NCBI GenBank assembly: GCA_963681505.1
Contig: OY811981.1
Coordinates: 4,310,317 to 4,374,316 of the forward strand
Origin: Eunapius fragilis
Taxonomy: Eukaryota; Porifera; Demospongiae; Spongillida; Spongillidae
Direction: 5' to 3'
DNA length: 64,000 bases
This document shows, in pieces, positions 6,600 through 23,500 of the stretch. A model generated the notes under the pieces. It was not told where the DNA came from, made no database searches, and saw only the letters and a list, made by a program, of their open reading frames with translations. The translations under genes and the position numbers were made by a program. Every line of letters begins with the position of its first letter. Positions within the stretch are counted from its first letter, which is position 1.

Positions 6600-8866
6600 A
6601 TATTAATTACACACTCTATATAAATTACACACTACTTGTGGTGCCCATTACAGAGGCAGCATTGCCCTGCTGAAGTGCAAAGGACACTCTTTGCAGAAGG
6701 AAAGGGAGAGACTGGTGGTCATGAGTGATGCTCTGTTGACGCCTGCTGATATCCGTGAGCAAACTGAGAGCATCAGGGCCAAGGGCACCTGAGGTCTCTA
6801 TTGCTACTGGGACAAAATGGTGGGATTTGGACAGCAGAGCATATTTCTCCTTCTTCCTGGCTTCAGCAGCTGTGGCTACAGCTCTAGCTTCCCTTGTGGC
6901 ATCAGACATGTATGAGGCTGCAAAGGTGTCCACACAAGTAAAGTCCCAAACAAGACACTGGCCAGACTTCCATGGGGCAATGGAACAACCATCAGGTCGC
7001 TTGCCATCTGATCTGCATAGGCCAATGGGCTCAAGTGTTGATGGTACGTTTATTGCTGCCAGTGACCTATGTATAATGGCATTGATAGCAACATGCCTTG
7101 AAAAACGACCCTGACTTTTAATGCAGCTGAGCCCATGAGTAGCGAGGGCATCAACATGACCTCCACAGTGGTGGCAGATGTGGGGTTGACAAAGTGGCGT
7201 ACCCAGACGAAGACCAACAGCTATCCTGGTTGTGTGATCATCCATTCGCAGGCCTAGGGAAGAGACAGGGAGGGCATGCAACCAGGCCCCAGACTCTTTA
7301 GTGGCTGCAGCCAGTAACCTGGCACGAGACCTGCAGTCAGAGGCACTATGCAGGAGCTGATCATATGTCTCTTCCACATGAGGGAGGTCCCATGCCTTTT
7401 GTCTGGAAGATGAAGGAGAGACAGGAGGTGGATAGTTGTGACCCTCTCTCCACTGAGTAACAGCAGCATCAACAGCTGTGTATGGAATGTCAGAAAACCG
7501 GGCAGGCAAAATTTGGTTGATGAGGTTGTAGGAACCAGCAGCGGAGGCCAAGAAGGCAGACGGTGCAAGCTGAGAAGCTCTACGAACCCCAATACCACCA
7601 AAACAGACTGGCAGAGTAGCCTGGGACCAAACTGACTCGCAAGAAAAATCGATATTCAGAACCTCACTCAGAGTGCTGCGCAATTCAGCATCATAAACAG
7701 CCAAGCACGGAGATGAGAAACAAGGAGCTGTCCTGAGGATGTACAAAATCTTAGGGATGGCAAATGAGTGGCGGAGCAGAATCAAGGCATCCTGGCTGCT
7801 CAGGAGACTGAGGCGAGATTTCATTTTCCTGAGAGCTTCCACTTTATCAAGCAATGCTTCATCAACAGATGAACCAATTGGTGAGCCCAGCAAAGTAGCA
7901 GTGTTGGGCCTGACTCTACAAAGGTCAGGTGCCAGGTGAAAAAGAGCAAGACCAGCTTGATCTGCACAGATGAGTTCTGATTTGTGATGGTTAAGTTCCA
8001 GACCAACGGCAGCAGCTTCTCTTTCAATCATCTTAAAATCATCACATACATCTGCTTCATTGCCACCTAAAGTTGCATCATCAAGGTAGAATATACGAAA
8101 TTCAGAATGTAACATCTGTGTCAAGGGAAAGATTACAAGGCAAAACAACAAAGGACCAAGAGGGTCACCCTGTTGTACCCCTTCAGCAGAACTGATGATG
8201 GTGTCATGAAAAAAAAGGGAAGAAGAGGTTGAATAGCAGGAGTAGATAAAGGGGAACAGCTCAGGGGTGTGTAGCTTAACAGCTTCAAGCATTTTATCTC
8301 TCCTTATGCTATTAAAAGCATTCTTGAAGTCTAGCTTGAGGATGACATGATCTGGATGTAGATTAGCAAGGTAACGTCTAGCTGAGTGGGCAGCAGCTTC
8401 TGCACCCAGCGGAGTACCATACCCAAGTTGAACTGGGGATAGTAAAGCACCCATGCGCTCCATAACTGCCATGCTAGCACACTTAGCAGCTAGACGACGA
8501 AAGGTACATCCCACTGCAATTGGTCGCAATCCACCATCTCTTTTTTTCAGGGCTACCAATGATGCACCGAACAAAAAGGGACGAACTATGACAGGAGTGT
8601 TTCCAGACAGGACAAGGTTTGTAAATGCAGTAAGGCTGCGGAGGAGAGACACACCACCTGGACCAGCTGTGGAGCTGGTAAGGTCTAACAGATGTTGGGG
8701 GCGAAGGCAGTCAGGGCCACCAGCAGAGCCTTTGGGAAAGGAACGGATAGCTTGTCTGATATCACATTCATTTACAGACAGAACTCCCTCCAAATCATCA
8801 TGATCAGGAGGTGATGGTAAAGTAGTTTCAGGATGTGCAGCTGGATGCTTGGATCTCAATGCTGCT
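6600..8866 (-). mobile_element. 5'-truncated REL-LINE insertion (first family)
   Basis: The insertion carries the 744-codon frame below. On its 5' side the homology stops at a (TA)n run (8873-8893), and in-frame stops follow. It lies tail to tail with the + strand fragment at 6010-6480, so the two 3' ends can pair as a hairpin. Confidence 0.8.
6625..8859 (-). CDS. Reverse transcriptase plus restriction-like endonuclease, 5'-truncated but open
   Basis: The product is a non-LTR retrotransposon polymerase that would nick target DNA and copy element RNA at the nick. Visible in order: RT motif A LKLDFKNAFNSI (residues about 174-185), motif [15 protein letters not shown] (226-239), motif C FYLDDATLGG (257-266), a CCHC-like knuckle CHHCGGHVDALATHGLSC (562-579), and a PD-(D/E)xK-type endonuclease with RPDG (621-624), WDFTC (638-642) and AIETSG. 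These are the hallmarks of REL-bearing LINEs (R2/R4/NeSL/CRE-like). The N-terminal part is absent, and no natural start is visible: the frame simply opens after stops in the (TA)n. The lack of internal stops over 744 codons suggests a recent insertion. The clade is not resolved. Confidence 0.9.
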   Translation of the reverse strand: MRSKHPAAHPETTLPSPPDHDDLEGVLSVNECDIRQAIRSFPKGSAGGPDCLRPQHLLDLTSSTAGPGGVSLLRSLTAFTNLVLSGNTPVIVRPFLFGASLVALKKRDGGLRPIAVGCTFRRLAAKCASMAVMERMGALLSPVQLGYGTPLGAEAAAHSARRYLANLHPDHVILKLDFKNAFNSIRRDKMLEAVKLHTPELFPFIYSCYSTSSSLFFHDTIISSAEGVQQGDPLGPLLFCLVIFPLTQMLHSEFRIFYLDDATLGGNEADVCDDFKMIEREAAAVGLELNHHKSELICADQAGLALFHLAPDLCRVRPNTATLLGSPIGSSVDEALLDKVEALRKMKSRLSLLSSQDALILLRHSFAIPKILYILRTAPCFSSPCLAVYDAELRSTLSEVLNIDFSCESVWSQATLPVCFGGIGVRRASQLAPSAFLASAAGSYNLINQILPARFSDIPYTAVDAAVTQWREGHNYPPPVSPSSSRQKAWDLPHVEETYDQLLHSASDCRSRARLLAAATKESGAWLHALPVSSLGLRMDDHTTRIAVGLRLGTPLCQPHICHHCGGHVDALATHGLSCIKSQGRFSRHVAINAIIHRSLAAINVPSTLEPIGLCRSDGKRPDGCSIAPWKSGQCLVWDFTCVDTFAASYMSDATREARAVATAAEARKKEKYALLSKSHHFVPVAIETSGALGPDALSLLTDISRRQQSITHDHQSLPFLLQRVSFALQQGNAASVMGTTSSV

Positions 8867-8872
8867 ATATTT

Positions 8873-13289: not shown

Positions 13290-13990
13290 GGGCTTGAAAG
13301 AAAAGCTTTGGCATCTCTGCCCCTCATTCTTCATCATAGCTTTCAGTTGTCCCCTCAGAAGGTCTTGGCCTCCACTTTGAACCAAATTAGTACCATGTTG
13401 CTCTTAAATGGTGGCTTGGCTTAGACACGTCAGGTCGCTCTCACTGTTCCCTTTGCTAAGATTCCATCCTGGATCCCCTAGGTCATCATGCTACCATGCA
13501 AACAAGGGGAAGATGTTGTACATCGTCATAACGTGTTTTTGCTGATTCATGTTGCTTGGTTCACCTAAGTGTCAAAGTTGAAGTAGGCAATAACCTAACT
13601 CAAGACCATGACCACTCAAGACCAGCAGATGCTCTCGTCCACAACTGGTCACATGGCAAGCCTGCAGCATTTGACTTTTTGGTGACCTCACTGCTTAATT
13701 CACTTAAATTGTAGGAAGCGGGAATGTCTCCAGGCGCAGCTGCTCAGGCCTCTGAGATCGGGAAGCACAGCAACAATAAATGTGGTGATCTAGGTTGGGT
13801 TTGTATCCCTTTGGTCATTGAGACGTATGGTGCGAGGGGTCAAGAGGCTGTGAAGAGTTTGCTCAGTTGGCGTCTAGGCTGGCAATCATCGTACCTGCTC
13901 CAAGCCAAAGTTTGTCATACCGGTACATGACCTATATGGCAGGCTGAATACCTGTCTTGCAAGATCAGTGGCATCGACCATCCTAGTAGG
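13290..13990 (+). pseudogene. REL-LINE 3' relic (second family), decayed
   Basis: Frames scattered over about 700 bp follow the C-terminal third of the 1185-codon element: RPADALVHNWSHGKPAAFD, then HSNNKCGDLGWVCIPL and VIETYGARGQEA. Upstream nucleotides match the knuckle region with stops and frameshifts. A premature stop follows the FDFLVTS motif. Confidence 0.75.
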
Positions 13991-14524: not shown

Positions 14525-17500
14525 GTAAGCTCCTTGGCGTACTAGGGTACTTATATAATAATAATATATTTACAGTGGCCTTATTGTTCGCAACTCTGTA
14601 CATACTGCAACTTCAACAAATACATAAGGTTTGTTTCATTGTTACACAGGGGCGGCGGAAGGTGTTTTTCTGTGCGGGGGGTAAAACTATTATGTGGGCG
14701 TGGCAGAAAGTAGCGCAGATTTGTGCATCATTGTTATGATATATTAGATCTACTTTTATTAAATGTATGTTCCACTTTAAACCAGTTATGCGCCTATCAG
14801 TAGTCTCCCCACCTCTCCCAGTGCGGGCACAGATGGGGCATTTGTGTGGGGATTGACTAAGATTTTTGATTTGATTGATTAAAATGCCCCATTTTGAAAA
14901 CTGGATGTCTAATCCCCACCTTCGCCTGCACTGGGATAGGTGGGGGAGACCATTGATAGGTGCATTAGCGCAATCTACTAATGAATTTATTTTTTGCCAG
15001 GCCCCCCCCCCCCCCTCCCCAGTTCCGCCGCCATTGATTGTATGTTATTCTCGACAGTCCATGACTATAGTTCCACGTGAAGGTTAGGTTTGTATTTATA
15101 AAGCTTTTTAAATTCGAACTTACCAGTAATCTCATCATTGTAGAGTTTGTTGACGTTATGGAATGACAGCTCTAAACAATTACTTTCATAAATTAAACAT
15201 CGCATTATCAAAAAAGCACAAGCCGTTGTCAAAGACCCATCAGCTTTGATGTAATGGAACATGAACGCCAACTAATGCTTTTTGGATCATGTCGTTACAG
15301 CTGAGTGATATTGGTAGCATCCTTCACTCTTATTTTGCAACTTAGGCCATGCAATGGTGATTGTAACCTTTTTTGAATCTGGCTATGATGACTAGATAGC
15401 ATGATGACTGTAAGTCTAAGTCACACAAATACATATGAGCAGGCAGCTTTCCTCTAAACAACATCAGGGATTACCACTTCAGTTAATTTTTGGATTTGGA
15501 TAATATTTATGATTATTGGAGGAACCATGATGATCGAAATAACAGTACTGGCCATCTAATCGATTTTTTGATATTAGTACCATTAGTTGTGTTACCCCCC
15601 AAAGTCTGAATAAAGTAACTGCAAAGGTCAAGAGATGTTAGAGGGATTTTAAGCCTTACCTTGGTATTAAATTGTCTTTATCTATGAAGATTATGAAATG
15701 ATGACGTACAAGCAGAATTGTAAGTAAGGTATCGCGTTTATTTCTTTGTATTGAACAGGTAAGAATAAGGTGTTTATGCTGGAATCAAAACATTGTTTTT
15801 TGAAAGCCGCAATGTTAAGCACGATGATATGGTGGCATGTCTAGTTCAAGAGCTCACAACACGTCTGAAAATGAGTGTTATTGAGGAAGTAACATCAGTT
15901 TATTTTGGAGGAGGTAAGAATTGTCTTTTGGTGTTGCTATTTGGTATTTTATTAGCATCATTATGTGTGCTGTGCCAAATCAAAACAACATTATTTTATC
16001 AAGTTCCAAGCTTTTAGTCAACTGTAGCTTGAAGCAGGAGGCTCAGCACTTTGTACCTCCGTATGATACTGTCCAGATAAGACCAGAGATTGTACCCACA
16101 CTAGACATGCATGAACAAAAACAGTCACTTGGCAAGCAATACATGTGGAATGTGTAAGTATTAAAGCTGGTAAATTAAACATGACAAGTGCAGGCCAGTT
16201 ATTGAATTGTGAATTTTTAGGATCATTGAGATTAATTGTAATGTGAATTAACAATTAATCTCCAGGACCAAGTACTAGTTTTTGGTTTCCCAGTTCATTT
16301 TGTTGTTTGATTTGTCTATCATGCCAAATTTACCAATTGTCAATTTATTTTTAAAATCACACCCTTTGTTGTACAATGCTAATAAACGGATGCGGTTCTT
16401 AAAGATGCATTATGCATACTATTTAATTGTAATAGAAAACAGTATGACAGATTTAAATTATTTAAAGTGGTTTTTGATGATTGACAAGCGTGCTACTTGA
16501 TACACTGTATGCCAGTGTTCTAACACTAATTGGTTCTGGCATTTTTACCAAAAACACACTGCTGTTTTTATGATTTTGTCCATTCACTTGGCTATTTCTA
16601 AACATGCAATTGACAAATAGTATTGTTCAACACTTGTGGAGCTAGCAATTCCAAACCTACACTATACTATTTTATTTTTCTATTGCCAAAGACTTTTCTT
16701 ACTGCCCCCCTTCTTTTGCACATCGTTCTGATCTTTCCAACATTACTTGTTGGTACTTGAAGTTGCTTTGTGATTTACTGAAGATGCATCTTTTGGCAAT
16801 GCAGTATTGACTGTATGTGATAATTGAAGAGTTGAGGGAAGTACCAGTTTATTCAGAATTGTTAACCATTTCTACAAATACAATGAGTTTTTTGGTTTGT
16901 TCTCTGTTCATATGGGTTGCTAAAAATTAATTGTAACTTGCGTCCTACACATAGGACCATCCTATGCGTAGGATATATGAATATTAAAGGTTAAATACCT
17001 GCGATGAAGTCATGTTTAAAAATGTTATTTTTGTAATTTGATAGTATAAAGTTTAATCGCTAAAGCACATTGTTGCAGCTGTCAAAGAAATAACTGATAC
17101 TACATCCACTCACCATGTTTATAGGAACTCCAAGTCTGGCTGAGCCGTTTGCCATTGAAGCTATATTGACAACTATCAATAAGCATGTTCGAATGTCACC
17201 TAATGCTGAAGTAACTCTTGAAGTGAATCCAACTTCTGGACAGCTCCAGAAGCTCAAGTAAGCCTGCATTGATTAATTTTGTGCTATTATTATTATTAAT
17301 AGTTATAAAACAACTAATTCATATATGCATACAATTATAATTATAATAATAATAATAATAGAGAATACATGAATAGGAATACAATATTTAGGAGGAGAAA
17401 TAACATGCATGAATTATTAATAACTCATGCTACAGTTCAATAAACTTTAAGATGGGAGCCACCTGGAAAGGATTATTATTATTATTATTATTATTATAAC

Positions 17501-20500
17501 AACAATAATACATTACACACTATGAAGTATATCAATAGTTTAAGACAGGACACATCTGGTGAGGATGGCTGTGGCGTTGGCTCTCACCAGGTGAAGGTTC
17601 AGCCTGCCATAAATGTCAAATTATTATTATTATTAAGTACAATTATTATTATTATTATTCTGCTGCATCTTGTATTCCTGTTCATGTTATGCAATGTATT
17701 ATTATTAAGTATATAATAATAATAATATGCCTTGCTGCAGTTGCAATGGCAAGAGAGCGGTTTGTAAGGGTTGCACCTGTGCTAAAGGCAATAAAGTCTG
17801 CATCAACTGCTACCCAGGAAGGCAAGGTAAGTGTGCTAACGCTTCGATTAGACCCACAGCATCTCAGACATCGTCTCAGCCGCTGCTCCCCATCCTATCG
17901 CTTTCATGCTCATCGGCTCAGGCGTCACAACAAGTAATTCCTCTCCTATCAACGAGGCCTTCCCCGGCCGTAGATGGTCTGCCTCCTCCAGGCTCCCCAT
18001 TATTGTATTCACAGCAGCTGTCCGCAAATCCACCGCTGTCTTCTGCACATTCACAGCAGCTGTCCGCAAATCCACCGCTGTCTCCCGCACAGCTGTCCGC
18101 ATTACAGCCGCCGCCTTCATCTTCTTCCTCCCCATCGCAATATCTACCGTTTCCAGGCCCACATCAGCCACCCTCGACATCAAGGCAAGCGTTTTCGGAA
18201 CTTCCATGTCAAGTTGCGTCTCCTGAGCCCTCAGTCCCGTCCCTGCCAGAACCACCAAGTACAGATTCCCCTCTGATACATAATCCTTCAAGCTCCCACT
18301 CTACTCGGAAGAGATGCCTTGTTCCAGGGTGCACAGCTCTCTTAGCTCCTACCATGTGGCATTCACACATGTCACTTCATGCACGTGGCCTTTTCCCAGG
18401 AGATGTCCCTAGCTCTTGGTTGACTGATCAGAACCTCTCTATCTGCACTTCCTGCCATCAACTTGTGTCCAATACAAGGACAGTTTCACATCGCAGTCGC
18501 TGTAGATCTAGAGCAATCACTCCAGATGTAGTACTCCCTCCCACCAACTTGTCAGATACCTCCACAACCAGCCACAGCCTCCCGTCTCTCGAAGAGGTTT
18601 TTCAGCTTCGCTGCCCCACCCTGCGTTTTGTCCCGGCCAGATCGAGGCCAGCCTTTGCTAGAATTCTTGCAAGCACCCTCATATCAGCTGTAAATGACAA
18701 CTCAGAAGACGCATGGCTAAAACTAATGATGCTACCAAAATGTGTACTCCCTTCAACAAAGAGCAAAGGAAGACACCTCAAACAGACACCGATTAACTAC
18801 TTATGTGACTTGTGGTCCAAAAACGAGTTTGGCACACTTTGGAACCTTGCCAAAGGACGTGCTATCCCAGTGGCACATGAATCTCATGGAAACGATAAAA
18901 GACAAATTGAATCAGCAGTTTCCATGGCCAGGGCCGGTCTATTTGGAAAGGCTAGCCGTCTACTTCTCTCGTCTGGACTAGCTCCCAATACAGATACCAC
19001 ATGGCAGTTATTATTATCCAAGCACCCCAGTTGCCCACCTCCTGTAGCTCCATTGATACCATCCACTCCTGCCACGATTGGTCCGGATTTCAATATGCTT
19101 GCCATTTTACATTCCTTTCCTAAGGATACTGCAGCAGGTCTTTCAGGCTTAAGGATCCAACACCTGCTAGATGCTGCCACTATCCCTTTGCCCACATCCA
19201 TTTGCAGTGCGCTTCGGGATGTTGTCAACCTCCTGGCATCTGGTAACGTACCCTCTCAAGTGTCTACCTACCTGGCTGGGGGCTCCCTGACTGCACTAAA
19301 TAAGGTGAAGCCGGGTTGTCCACCAGACATCAGACCCATCGCAGTTGGGGAGACATTAAGGAGGTTGACGGGGAAATGCCTGTGTGCTGTCATCAAGGAC
19401 AAGGCATCTGAGCTTTTCCATCCACTTCAGTTTGGAGTAGCATGTACTGCAGGATCAGAGAAGATCATCCATGGCTTGAGGAAGTGCATTGAGGACCACT
19501 GGGATGATGAGGATTTCGTGGTGCTCAAGGTAGACATGAGGAACGCCTTCAACTTGGTCTCAAGGCAAGCCATCCTGGATGAATGCGCTTCTCTCTTCCC
19601 TGAACTCCTACCTTGGGTATTATGGTGCTATGGTACACATTCAGCACTATGGCATCCGATGGGCCGTGTGTCTTCAGAATCAGGGGTTCAGCAGGGGGAC
19701 CCACTAGACCCTTTACTTTTTGCTCTCGTGCTCCAAAAAATCATCTCCGCAGTCGATGTGGATGTTGAATGCATTGAGATGCTTTTCAATGCATGGTTCC
19801 TGGATGATGGGGTGCTGGCTGGCCCTAAATCTGCAGTACTTAGAGCGATGCACTTGATTGAAGAATTGGGTCCTCCTTTTGGTATTTTTATCAACCTTGC
19901 CAAATGTGAGCTGTATAGTCGTAATGAGCTGAGCAGCACCTTCCCGGTGATGATAAAGAGTTCTCAGGTGCCACATTTGGAGATACTTGGGGCCCCCATA
20001 GGTGACTTCTTGTTTTGCTCAAAGTTCATTGCTTCTAGGCGCAAGATTGCCTCAAAGCTGCTTTCTAAATTGGAAGAGGTTGCCAGTATTGATCCTCAGG
20101 TAGCTCTTATCCTCGTGCGTTTGTGTGGTGGCTTCTGCAAAATGGTGCATGTGGCTCGAACAACACCCCCTCACCTTGCCTTTAGCTCCCTGGAGTCCTT
20201 TGACAGTGATGTCAGGATGTGTTTTTCAAACTGTGTAGCCACAGACATTTCTGATGTAGCCTGGAAACAGGCTCAACTTGGCTTGAGCTATGGTGGTCTT
20301 GGTCTGCGCTCAATTTCACACCATTCCTGTGCGGCATACATTGCATCACTGAGCTTTTCTGGCCTGGGGAGTGCTGACAACCCTCACCTGATGCGGTCAA
20401 TTGTCAAGTACAATGGTTTGGTCTCACCTCCAGATGGCATCTCTGTGGAGTCTATTTTAGCTTCCCCGATCCCACAGAGAATCTTGTCTCAGAGGCTGGA

Positions 20501-23500
20501 TGACCACTCTTTTGGGCTTGTAATTGCAGCTGCAACTGACGCAGACAAAGCACGTCTTCTTTCTACATCTGCACCCCATGCAGCCTCTTGGCTCTCAGTT
20601 GTGCCTTCTATAGGTCTTGGGCTACATTTAGATCCCAATGAGCTTCAGATAGCAGTGAAGTGGTGGTTGGGCTTGGACACTTCCAGAGGCTCTTCATGTG
20701 GTCTCTGCCCTGATGTGGCATTGGACCCTCTAGGCCATCATGCAGCTACCTGCCGGCGTGGTGGCGATGTAGTTATACGTCACAATAGGTTGCGTGATGT
20801 CTTTCTGAGCTTTTGCCACCAAGCCCACATTGCAGCAAGGTTAGAAGCTGGAAGTGGCCTCACTCCAGGACTGGATCGCGCTTGCCCAGCTGATGTGCTA
20901 GTGAGGGACTGGGCTCAAGGCAAGCCGGCGGCCTTTGACATCACGGTCACATCTCCTCTTACCCCTGCTATTTTGGCTGAGGCAAGTAGGAGGGTGGGTG
21001 CTGCTGCTGAAGCTGCAGAAAACAGAAAGCACACAGCCAATGACCCTAAATGTGCTGAACTAGGCTGGAGGTGTGTGCCTCTAGCAGTAGAAACTTACTG
21101 CAATTGGGGTGAGGAAGCAAGAGGAACCTTTGTTCTACTGGCCACACGCTTGGCCTTTGGCTCTTCCTCATTTCGTAAAGCCAGGGTGATCAGTGACATG
21201 TTTGGAAGGTTGAATATCACCCTGGTGAGAGCCATAGCAAGGGCCATACTGGCTAGGACTGTGATCCCTTCTGACTTTAGTTAAATAATAATAATATGTT
21301 GGTGTGTATTATGTATATATGCGTATTTGTGCTCCCTTCTGACTATGTGCATTTATTCCTTTCATGTATTCTCTTGTATTATGTATTATATATACATATA
21401 TTATTATTATTATTATTATTATTTTTTAGGCAGTTTAAACTTGCTGGAATCAACCGTTTGTCTATAGGAATGCAGGTAACTATTTTGTGATGTGATACGT
21501 ATTTCTTAAGAAGTGTAAATGTTAGTTCTACTGTGTATAGCTGCAATTAATGTCTTCAAATATGAGCAATACAATTAATAAAGGCAATCATATTCACATT
21601 TTGTCTGCTTGCATAATTGTTAAAACTCTGCATAAATACCATTCAGTTACAAATTAATTAATATAAAGTATGGATGTTGTGCTGCTTGTTGGTATGGTGT
21701 GAATAAAACAGGAAATTGCTCACTTTGCAAATCTATATCTTGGTAATGGATAAAAATTTAACTAACATGAAAATACAATAGCGACAGGACACTCCAAATT
21801 CGAAGCAATTTGGATGCATTTACCTACAGGTGTGGCTGTTTTGAACCCCATGGGGTATCGTACCTCGTAACATTTGTACACTGCTTGTGCGAGACACCAA
21901 TATTAATTTTCACGTATAGATTATGGTGTGGTGTGTAGTACTGAGAAGTGGGAGTTCATAGTATAAACAGTTCAGGCAATAAATCGATTTGATTTGGGTG
22001 CAATATTCGAAATCCACATGCAACAAAAATTTGTAGAAATATATATGAGACAGTTCATGAGAAAATGTCCCTTCGCTATATATAATAAAGAGATATAAAA
22101 ATGCTCTCCATTTGTATAACTATGACACTTCCGAACGATTAATGTTATTGATGTACTATTTGCAGCACATCCTTTACCATAAATACCAGGCCTGGAACAA
22201 GAGGAAAAAATTGGGGCAGCCACGCAAATACCCCATGATAAACCCCTTGAGCTCCAGGATCACCCTCCCACCCCCCACCCTGATGGAATCACTGCATAGG
22301 TGATAGTAATGATTTATTCAAAAGGTAGGACCATTTTCATTTATGAAACAAGATTATTTCTCAACCCCTTTTCTGGATAAGATTGGAATAAAGGAGTGGT
22401 GTCCTAGTTCCTGACCTATCCTAATGTTCTCTTGGTGGGAGGACCATGCAGGGGCGTGCTTGAGGGCTTCTGGTCGGGTCCAGGGTGCTTATTTTGACAC
22501 AAATAATACATTGTAACACTACATGCATGTTGGTAAGTGACCCGATAGTTGTTCCAGTGCCGCATGGAAGTTCGGCCTATTTGGGACTTTACTTGTGTTG
22601 ACACCGTTGCAACCTCATACATATCTGATGCAACGAGCTAGCAACTGCTGAAGCCAGAAAGCGGGAGAAATACGCTCAGCTGACCAGGTCTCACCATTTT
22701 GTCCCAATTGCAATTGAGACCTCTGGTGCCCTAGGACCTGATGCTCTCAGTTTGTTCTTTGATATTGGCAGGCATCAGCAGACCATTACACATAACCACC
22801 AGTCCTTCTTGTTCCTTCTCCAGAGAGAGTCCATTGCACTCCAGCAGGGCGTGCTGCCTCTGTAGTGGGTACCACAAGTAGCATGTGATTTATATTGTGT
22901 ATCCCTGTGTATATGTGTTAACAATGTAAACTGTTGTGCTTCATTATTAAATATTTATTATAGGAGTGATAAGCACTGTTTCCAGAAGATCCATGGAACA
23001 AAACTATTGCTATCTGAATCAGATACAGCTTGGTGGGATGCTTATAAACGAGACAGTTCATCGTATTTCTCGTATAGGTTTATATAAATTCTAGCTCTCG
23101 ATTGCTGCAATATATATTTGCATTCAAACCTTGTTTTGCGATGAAGTATGGTAATCAAGTTTTCGGTTTAGTGGCAACGAGTGATTTGTAGCAGTGAAAT
23201 GATTTGCTGAGTTAGTTTGGTTCATTCAGTAAGTGTTCTATTGCTGCTTTAATAAATGGGACGTACTACGAGATTTTCACCCGTGGAGTTTATATATATA
23301 TATATCAAATGGTTATATCACCTGAATTTCTGAACTGTTAACGCTATTGCCTTCCTATTTTGAACACTACATGCCACACCATTTCTATATGCGAAATACA
23401 TATTGGTATCTTGCTTAAGTGGGATGCAGGCATTATAAGGTTCGGCACTTCTCAAAGCGGCCACATCTAGGTAAGAGTGATCAAATCACTTTACATTTGA

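Follow-up and report, generated by a model that had tools for sequence, protein, structure and literature searches.

We analysed a 64,000-nt stretch of the genome of the sponge Eunapius fragilis (GenBank assembly GCA_963681505.1, contig OY811981.1, positions 4,310,317 to 4,374,316 of the forward strand; hereafter the window), focusing on a non-long terminal repeat (non-LTR) retrotransposon whose reading frame occupies positions 17727–21284 within an intron. The element is very probably a recently active member of the R2 group that would insert by target-primed reverse transcription (TPRT) where the DNA is AT-rich and bears TAA, starting at variable points on its RNA, with transcripts that occasionally read through into flanking DNA, and nesting among related insertions. 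Judged from its sequence it appears intact and was probably active recently, and as such it is an ordinary long interspersed nuclear element (LINE) with unusual ends.

Structure and homology of the element

The element is encoded on the plus strand as a single open reading frame (ORF) of 1185 codons plus stop (17727–21284). An earlier note on this DNA had described this frame, its start directly after AAT repeats and its identity as a LINE with a restriction-like endonuclease (REL), all of which our analysis confirmed. An (AAT)4 run at 17715–17726 precedes the ATG, and at most its last 4–11 nt belong to the element, the remainder being target. Other copies that begin at the ATG share only a few bases upstream of it (by eye, TTTTGAAGAAT in L011 and L015, TGAAGAAT in L012, AAGAAT in L013, and AATAAT in L009, L014 and L016), and are otherwise preceded by unrelated flank; the ATG is therefore very likely the start, with a 5' untranslated region (UTR) of about 4–11 nt. 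A promoter would not fit upstream of the frame in so short a leader, and transcription would then start from inside the ORF or depend on a host transcript.

The protein opens with a Cys-rich stretch (MPCCSCNG...GKC; 17727–17843, plus strand), whose only Pfam match, metallothionein-like, lies below the cutoff (E 0.17); the MPCC start is shared by 6 of the 10 relatives for which the 5' region was fetched. A C2H2/C2HC-like zinc-finger region, its spacing judged by eye, is located at 18315–18503 (plus strand), again with sub-cutoff Pfam matches (Spo7_2_N, the best, E 1.5e-4; zf_C2H2_ZNF598, E 0.0012; zf-C2HC_3, E 0.0086). The reverse transcriptase (RT) domain at 19311–19958 (plus strand) matches RVT_1 in Pfam (E 1.1e-11) and is R2-type by profile comparison. 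It is followed at 20697–21060 (plus strand) by a CCHC zinc knuckle and a restriction-like endonuclease region carrying RHN, PAD and FDITV, which has no Pfam match of its own; this second stretch was aligned to R2 (9nl3_A, i-E 0.018), and its Cys, His, RH and an Asp are conserved in A1/A2. When a three-sequence profile was compared with solved structures, in which R2 and LINE-1 were the only LINE references, R2 chains came first (9nl3_A, E 1.7e-17; 9dou_A, E 2.9e-17) and LINE-1 later (2.7e-7), and the alignment to R2 took in both the RT and the CCHC/restriction-like endonuclease stretches. By this homology the element is a member of the R2 group of REL LINEs in the broad sense.

The stop codon TAA continues into ATAATAATAAT and thus runs into a 3' repeat, as the earlier note had observed; however, this (TAA)n is element sequence and not target, because it and the following sequence to about 21386 recur in other copies. 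The 3' UTR, which opens with the element-borne (TAA)n, extends over 21285–21386 on the plus strand and contains at 21350–21373 (plus strand) a 24-nt motif, CATTTATTCCTTTCATGTATTCTC, common to several families. An (ATT)8 run is located 3' of the element at 21400–21423 (plus strand). The impression that the element has almost no UTRs consequently holds for its 5' side, whereas the shared 3' UTR reaches up to 102 nt and places the end of the element at about 21386 rather than 21284. Conserved untranslated sequence of that length outside the frame speaks in part against the view in the earlier note of an element bounded by its frame. No Rfam ribozyme was matched at E ≤ 1 within 17500–21500.

Genomic copies and recent activity

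At least 46 places in the 219-Mb genome carry the family, 41 of them from the main search, four from a query with the 3' end, and in addition L090; all genome place counts are lower bounds. The main search returned 44 matches, one of which was a 67% match to a relative. Family copies are 97–100% identical and differ from the window copy by 0.3–2.3% over the compared stretches. Eight copies are near full length (a count that includes L015 and L016, whose alignments are split), and five of these have no stop: the window copy, two on contig C19, one on C1 and one on C10. Of the 41 places from the main search, 40 match the query through to its 3' end or stop no more than 7 nt short. For further analysis a set of 37 copies was used, comprising loci L009–L049 without L042, which does not reach the 3' end, L047, which contains an N stretch, L026, the inverted mate of L017, and L045, a duplicate of the L044 site. 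The four places from the 3' query are outside this set, and L090 was included only in the search for clade fragments in flanks and in the comparison of copy divergence. Among the 37 copies, 29 are 5'-truncated, and the core of a shared sequence 3' of the stop (TAAATAATAATAATATGTTGGTGTG...) is found in 36, the combination of variable 5' truncation and a retained 3' side expected of a LINE copied by TPRT.

Comparison of the window copy with three intact copies gave synonymous divergence (dS) of 0.017–0.020 and nonsynonymous divergence (dN) of 0.006–0.007; against a 64%-identical relative dN was 0.26, with synonymous sites saturated. These figures argue for selection on the protein and for recent activity. 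No relatives were confirmed in viral contigs. The L017 and L026 copies are inverted, tail to tail, about 75 nt apart.

Insertion sites

Of the 37 copies, 27 have a TAA/ATT run of at least three units no more than 100 nt away on one side or both, compared with 2 at 900–1000 nt (Fisher p 1.5e-9). For longer runs the counts, again of 37, were 20 versus 0 for at least four units and 13 versus 0 for at least six units. Counting 50 nt from the 3' junction, 17 of the 37 copies have a run of four or more units, compared with 1 of 597 background 100-nt stretches of the window. The flanks are rich in AT: over the 50 nt nearest the element the content is 82% on the 3' side and 75% on the 5' side, against 61% in the background. 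In these 50-nt flank and AT counts L015 and L016 were taken to start at their second alignment piece, which was corrected for the duplication tests and the 100-nt run test; the start of L023, also a second piece, was left uncorrected in the 100-nt run test, where this copy counts as having no run. The 5'-flank figures (50-nt runs and AT content) for L015, L016 and L023 thus fall inside the element. The microsatellite target proposed by the earlier note is accordingly borne out as a strong preference and not as a rule, and the junctions of other copies, in part flanked by DNA without a nearby run, speak in part against that proposal.

Relatives show the same tendency, with a run of at least four units within 200 nt past the stop in 15 of 20 fetched 3' regions, versus 1 of 20 at 250–450 nt. 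Within 140 nt in their 5' regions, 4 of 10 have a run of at least four units and 6 of 10 a run of at least three. On the 25-Mb contig C1 we counted by hand 36 distinct places with (TAA)≥7, three of which, also by hand, are within about 200 nt of a family or relative element. Clade fragments occur in the 1.5-kb flanks of 23 of the 37 copies (that of L017 being its own-family mate), which suggests that insertions nest. With related families sharing one type of site, insertions would nest in TAA islands such as the host intron described below.

Duplications at the junctions were examined in 34 copies, L019, L023 and L031 being excluded in addition. Matches of at least 6 nt were found in 8, with 3.9 expected (7 of 300 shuffles reach 8), and of at least 5 nt in 13, with 9.1 expected (17 of 300 shuffles). 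In the separate test of the mean, L012 was given a longer chance match instead of the short one at its junction.

Two further features of the flanks were recorded. The sequences 3' of the stop in the relatives L062, L071, L072 and L073 are compound sites, in which TAA units are followed by long A-runs and then (TAA)n again. A repeat with self-matches in both orientations, resembling a foldback or miniature inverted-repeat transposable element, recurs in the flanks of L014, L022, L041 and L048.

Variable 3' ends, a shared motif and a captured flank

The copies leave the shared tail at points between 24 and 102 nt past the stop, with about 26 different lengths among 37 copies, and two tail forms are present within the window family. 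The tails of relatives (20 fetched of 26 listed, with 54–66% protein identity) were sorted by eye into seven types, several of which likewise include varying ends. L023 is a chimera with a relative, and its 3' end may therefore be a rearrangement.

In spite of their otherwise unlike 3' tails, at least four families share the 24-nt motif. Its pattern, ATTTATTCC-N0..3-TTCRTGTATTCTC, was found at 108 places in the genome versus none in a reversed control. Among copy and relative loci there are 16 instances with up to three mismatches, 13 of them with a clade coding match within about 165 nt upstream; 11 of the 16, from four families, are clean. The clean set leaves out L011, where the motif lies past the copy's own end, and the minus strand of the window, where the match is a neighbouring remnant. 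Within the window family the motif is kept, with up to two mismatches, in 5 of 37 copies (the window copy, L010, L031, L032 and L048).

Copies L033 and L046 leave the tail at the same point and continue with the same 26-nt sequence. This piece occurs, with up to two mismatches, at three places in 219 Mb, namely L033, L046 and L090, each time attached to an element tail, and where these three copies overlap their sequences are the same. Their identity is as expected for sisters, apparently descended from a parent whose RNA ran into the flank, and the captured downstream flank points to read-through transcripts. L020 and L028 were considered as a second such pair and rejected: they are not sisters, and their pattern with one mismatch is at chance, giving 14 matches versus 19 in the reversed control, the two exact matches being these two tails.

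Proposed mechanism and evidence against it

Based on these observations, we propose that the element protein nicks AT-rich, TAA-rich sites, and that the nick would prime reverse transcription of the element RNA. Where synthesis stays incomplete, 5'-truncated copies would result, which accounts for their large number. Reverse transcription would have no fixed starting point on the RNA, producing ends 24–102 nt past the stop, and occasional read-through transcripts, perhaps as a general rule of the family, would bring downstream flank along.

Several results weigh against this scheme. Ten of the 37 copies have no run of at least three units within 100 nt, and an unoccupied, diverged (84–85% identical) paralogue of the L014 site is A-rich with no TAA run. 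Target-site duplications are short and weak, with a mean longest match of 7.4 versus 6.3 in shuffled pairs, and no excess is seen at 7 nt or more (3 versus 2.3 expected) or at 8 nt or more (2 versus 1.6). The clustering of clade fragments in 23 of 37 flanks was counted without a matched control, and the genome contains many fragments of this kind. Tail lengths were set by an alignment rule, six of them by hand; for L019, L020 and L023 they are approximate. Microhomology priming was considered as the cause of the variable 3' ends and set aside, as there is no clear enrichment of matches across the 3' junction (of 34, at least 5 nt in 8 versus 6.7 expected, at least 6 nt in 6 versus 4.1, at least 7 nt in 3 versus 1.6). 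Flank capture was seen in one group only, and L012, which lacks the 26-nt flank, is equally identical to two of the three flank-bearing copies, so identity alone does not set these copies apart.

The strongest competitor, which we regard as a serious possibility somewhat short of an even chance, is an R2-group lineage, HERO-like or of some other unplaced kind, that chooses AT-rich targets loosely and for which TAA runs are simply the commonest suitable sites. The AT-richness of both flanks relative to the background fits this explanation, as does the description of the HERO clade as including both non-specific and some microsatellite-specific REL families (PMC4640811). Against it, (TAA)≥7 is so rare on C1 that runs of at least six units beside 13 of 37 copies would be unlikely from base composition alone, a comparison whose control was not AT-matched. 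It is unlikely that the TAA runs were made by the insertions themselves, through slippage or untemplated addition during reverse transcription, rather than chosen as targets. Runs of at least four units are indeed more frequent within 50 nt of the 3' junction (17 of 37) than of the 5' junction (9 of 37), and RT is described as adding simple repeats at the end of some R2 elements (PMC7650587), but runs also precede 5' junctions and occur in the gaps between nested elements, in many cases with other sequence between them and the tail, and L041 has TAA units on both sides.

The earlier note had likened the element to Dong of the R4 clade, and a true R4/Dong-clade element would combine strict (TAA)n targeting with fixed ends, imperfect sites being decayed microsatellites. 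Any likeness lies in the target only. The enrichment of (TAA)n near junctions agrees with it, yet copies as young as these already include ten with no run, the (TAA)n that follows the stop is part of the element's own sequence, and the ends are not fixed. In addition, the Cys-rich start and the zinc-finger-like spacing, the latter recognized by eye with sub-cutoff Pfam matches, depart from Dong, whose N-terminal zinc fingers are absent according to the description in PMC7998251. We consider this explanation quite improbable, and membership of the element in R4/Dong is not supported. Least probable of all is that the 3' heterogeneity arose after insertion, by decay in unstable AT-rich DNA, and not from variable initiation. 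Microsatellite-rich surroundings are prone to deletion, and the weakness of the junction duplications, with no excess at 7 nt or more, agrees with decay; opposed to it are the excess of matches of at least 6 nt at the point of departure, the number of end points among copies only about 1% diverged, and the three copies with a common end plus captured flank.

Host gene and neighbouring remnants

The element lies in an intron at 17258–21429 (plus strand) of a HemW/RSAD1-like gene, with the upstream exon ending in QKLK, a GT donor at 17258 and an AG acceptor ending at 21429. Both the intron position and the sense orientation given by the earlier note were upheld by the splice signals and the exon matches: the exon pieces on either side, once joined, gave matches to HemW-type radical SAM models (NF005133, the best, E 5.8e-31; TIGR00539, E 1.5e-29), under the curated cut-offs because the protein is partial. 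RSAD1 is the name of the animal gene.

The same intron contains two 5'-truncated remnants of related families, both on the minus strand and both adjoined by TAA/ATT runs. The one at 17360–17472 consists of a coding 3' end, a 3' UTR and the shared 3' motif, and is too short for a tblastn match of its own; it has DNA in common with the tail of the family adjoining L012, L021, L028 and L041. The other, at 17496–17619, was detected by tblastn with 62.5% identity over 24 aa at 17617–17546 (E 0.009). All eight (AAT/ATT)≥4 runs of the window lie within 17286–21423, which is not due to chance. Outside the intron, five more matches to relatives are found in the window. At 6625–8871 (minus strand) there is a second R2-group RT/REL frame, with 748 codons between stops, which shares about 30% identity with the first and lacks a recognised start and N-terminus, and at 13307–13912 (plus strand) a related-family fragment that is 49% identical over 210 aa.

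Comparison with known elements

R2 itself, represented by Bombyx mori and Taeniopygia guttata (structures 8gh6, 9dou and 9nl3), shares with the element the RT, the C-terminal CCHC and the restriction-like endonuclease, as well as 5'-truncated copies, reported for R2 in PMC7650587. R2 proper was nevertheless rejected, as the examined copies lie in differing AT-rich flanks and the window copy in an intron, not in the 28S rRNA site. Unlike R2, the element has its examined copies outside 28S ribosomal DNA (rDNA), variable 3' ends, no ribozyme in the Rfam search above, and a 3' UTR of at most 102 nt, compared with the 248 nt given for R2Bm in PMC10499050. Dong elements of the R4 clade, as described in PMC7998251, likewise have insertion sites associated with (TAA)n and RT and REL domains; by that published description the N-terminal Cys-rich and zinc-finger-like motifs and the loose choice of sites set our element apart. 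HERO, compared by its description in PMC4640811 only, is alike in mixing non-specific and microsatellite-specific REL elements.

BLAG, a non-site-specific R2-like element of the German cockroach, is also reported outside rDNA and with zinc fingers; its authors proposed insertion next to host promoters, and its copies share flank on the 5' side, in contrast to the 3'-side flank captured here (PMC7650587). For the R4/Dong clade, the published Myb/SANT-like N-terminal domain required a profile-profile search, and our Pfam scan of the element at E ≤ 1 gave no Myb match. Among the literature matches listed, mostly outside subscription journals, no title or abstract opening describes this combination of features, which does not prove novelty.

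Implications for the R2 group

Taken more broadly, the data may reflect R2-group LINEs that have radiated without a fixed 3' end of their RNA: the starting point would differ from insertion to insertion, the tail would erode and be refilled by captured flank while the motif CATTTATTCC...TTCATGTATTCTC persists across families, and TAA islands would serve as common landing sites in which families nest. We put this forward tentatively, as rather less likely than not to hold in full. R2 is under exploration for gene insertion, and its structure and its RNA and target contacts have been described (PMC10499050), which makes the choice of RNA and DNA by R2-type proteins of current interest. Elements able to do without a fixed 3' end and without a long UTR, but nonetheless favouring a simple repeat, would offer a natural way to test that choice, and with young copies by the dozen and open frames in several families, the question of 3' end and site is open to testing in this genome.

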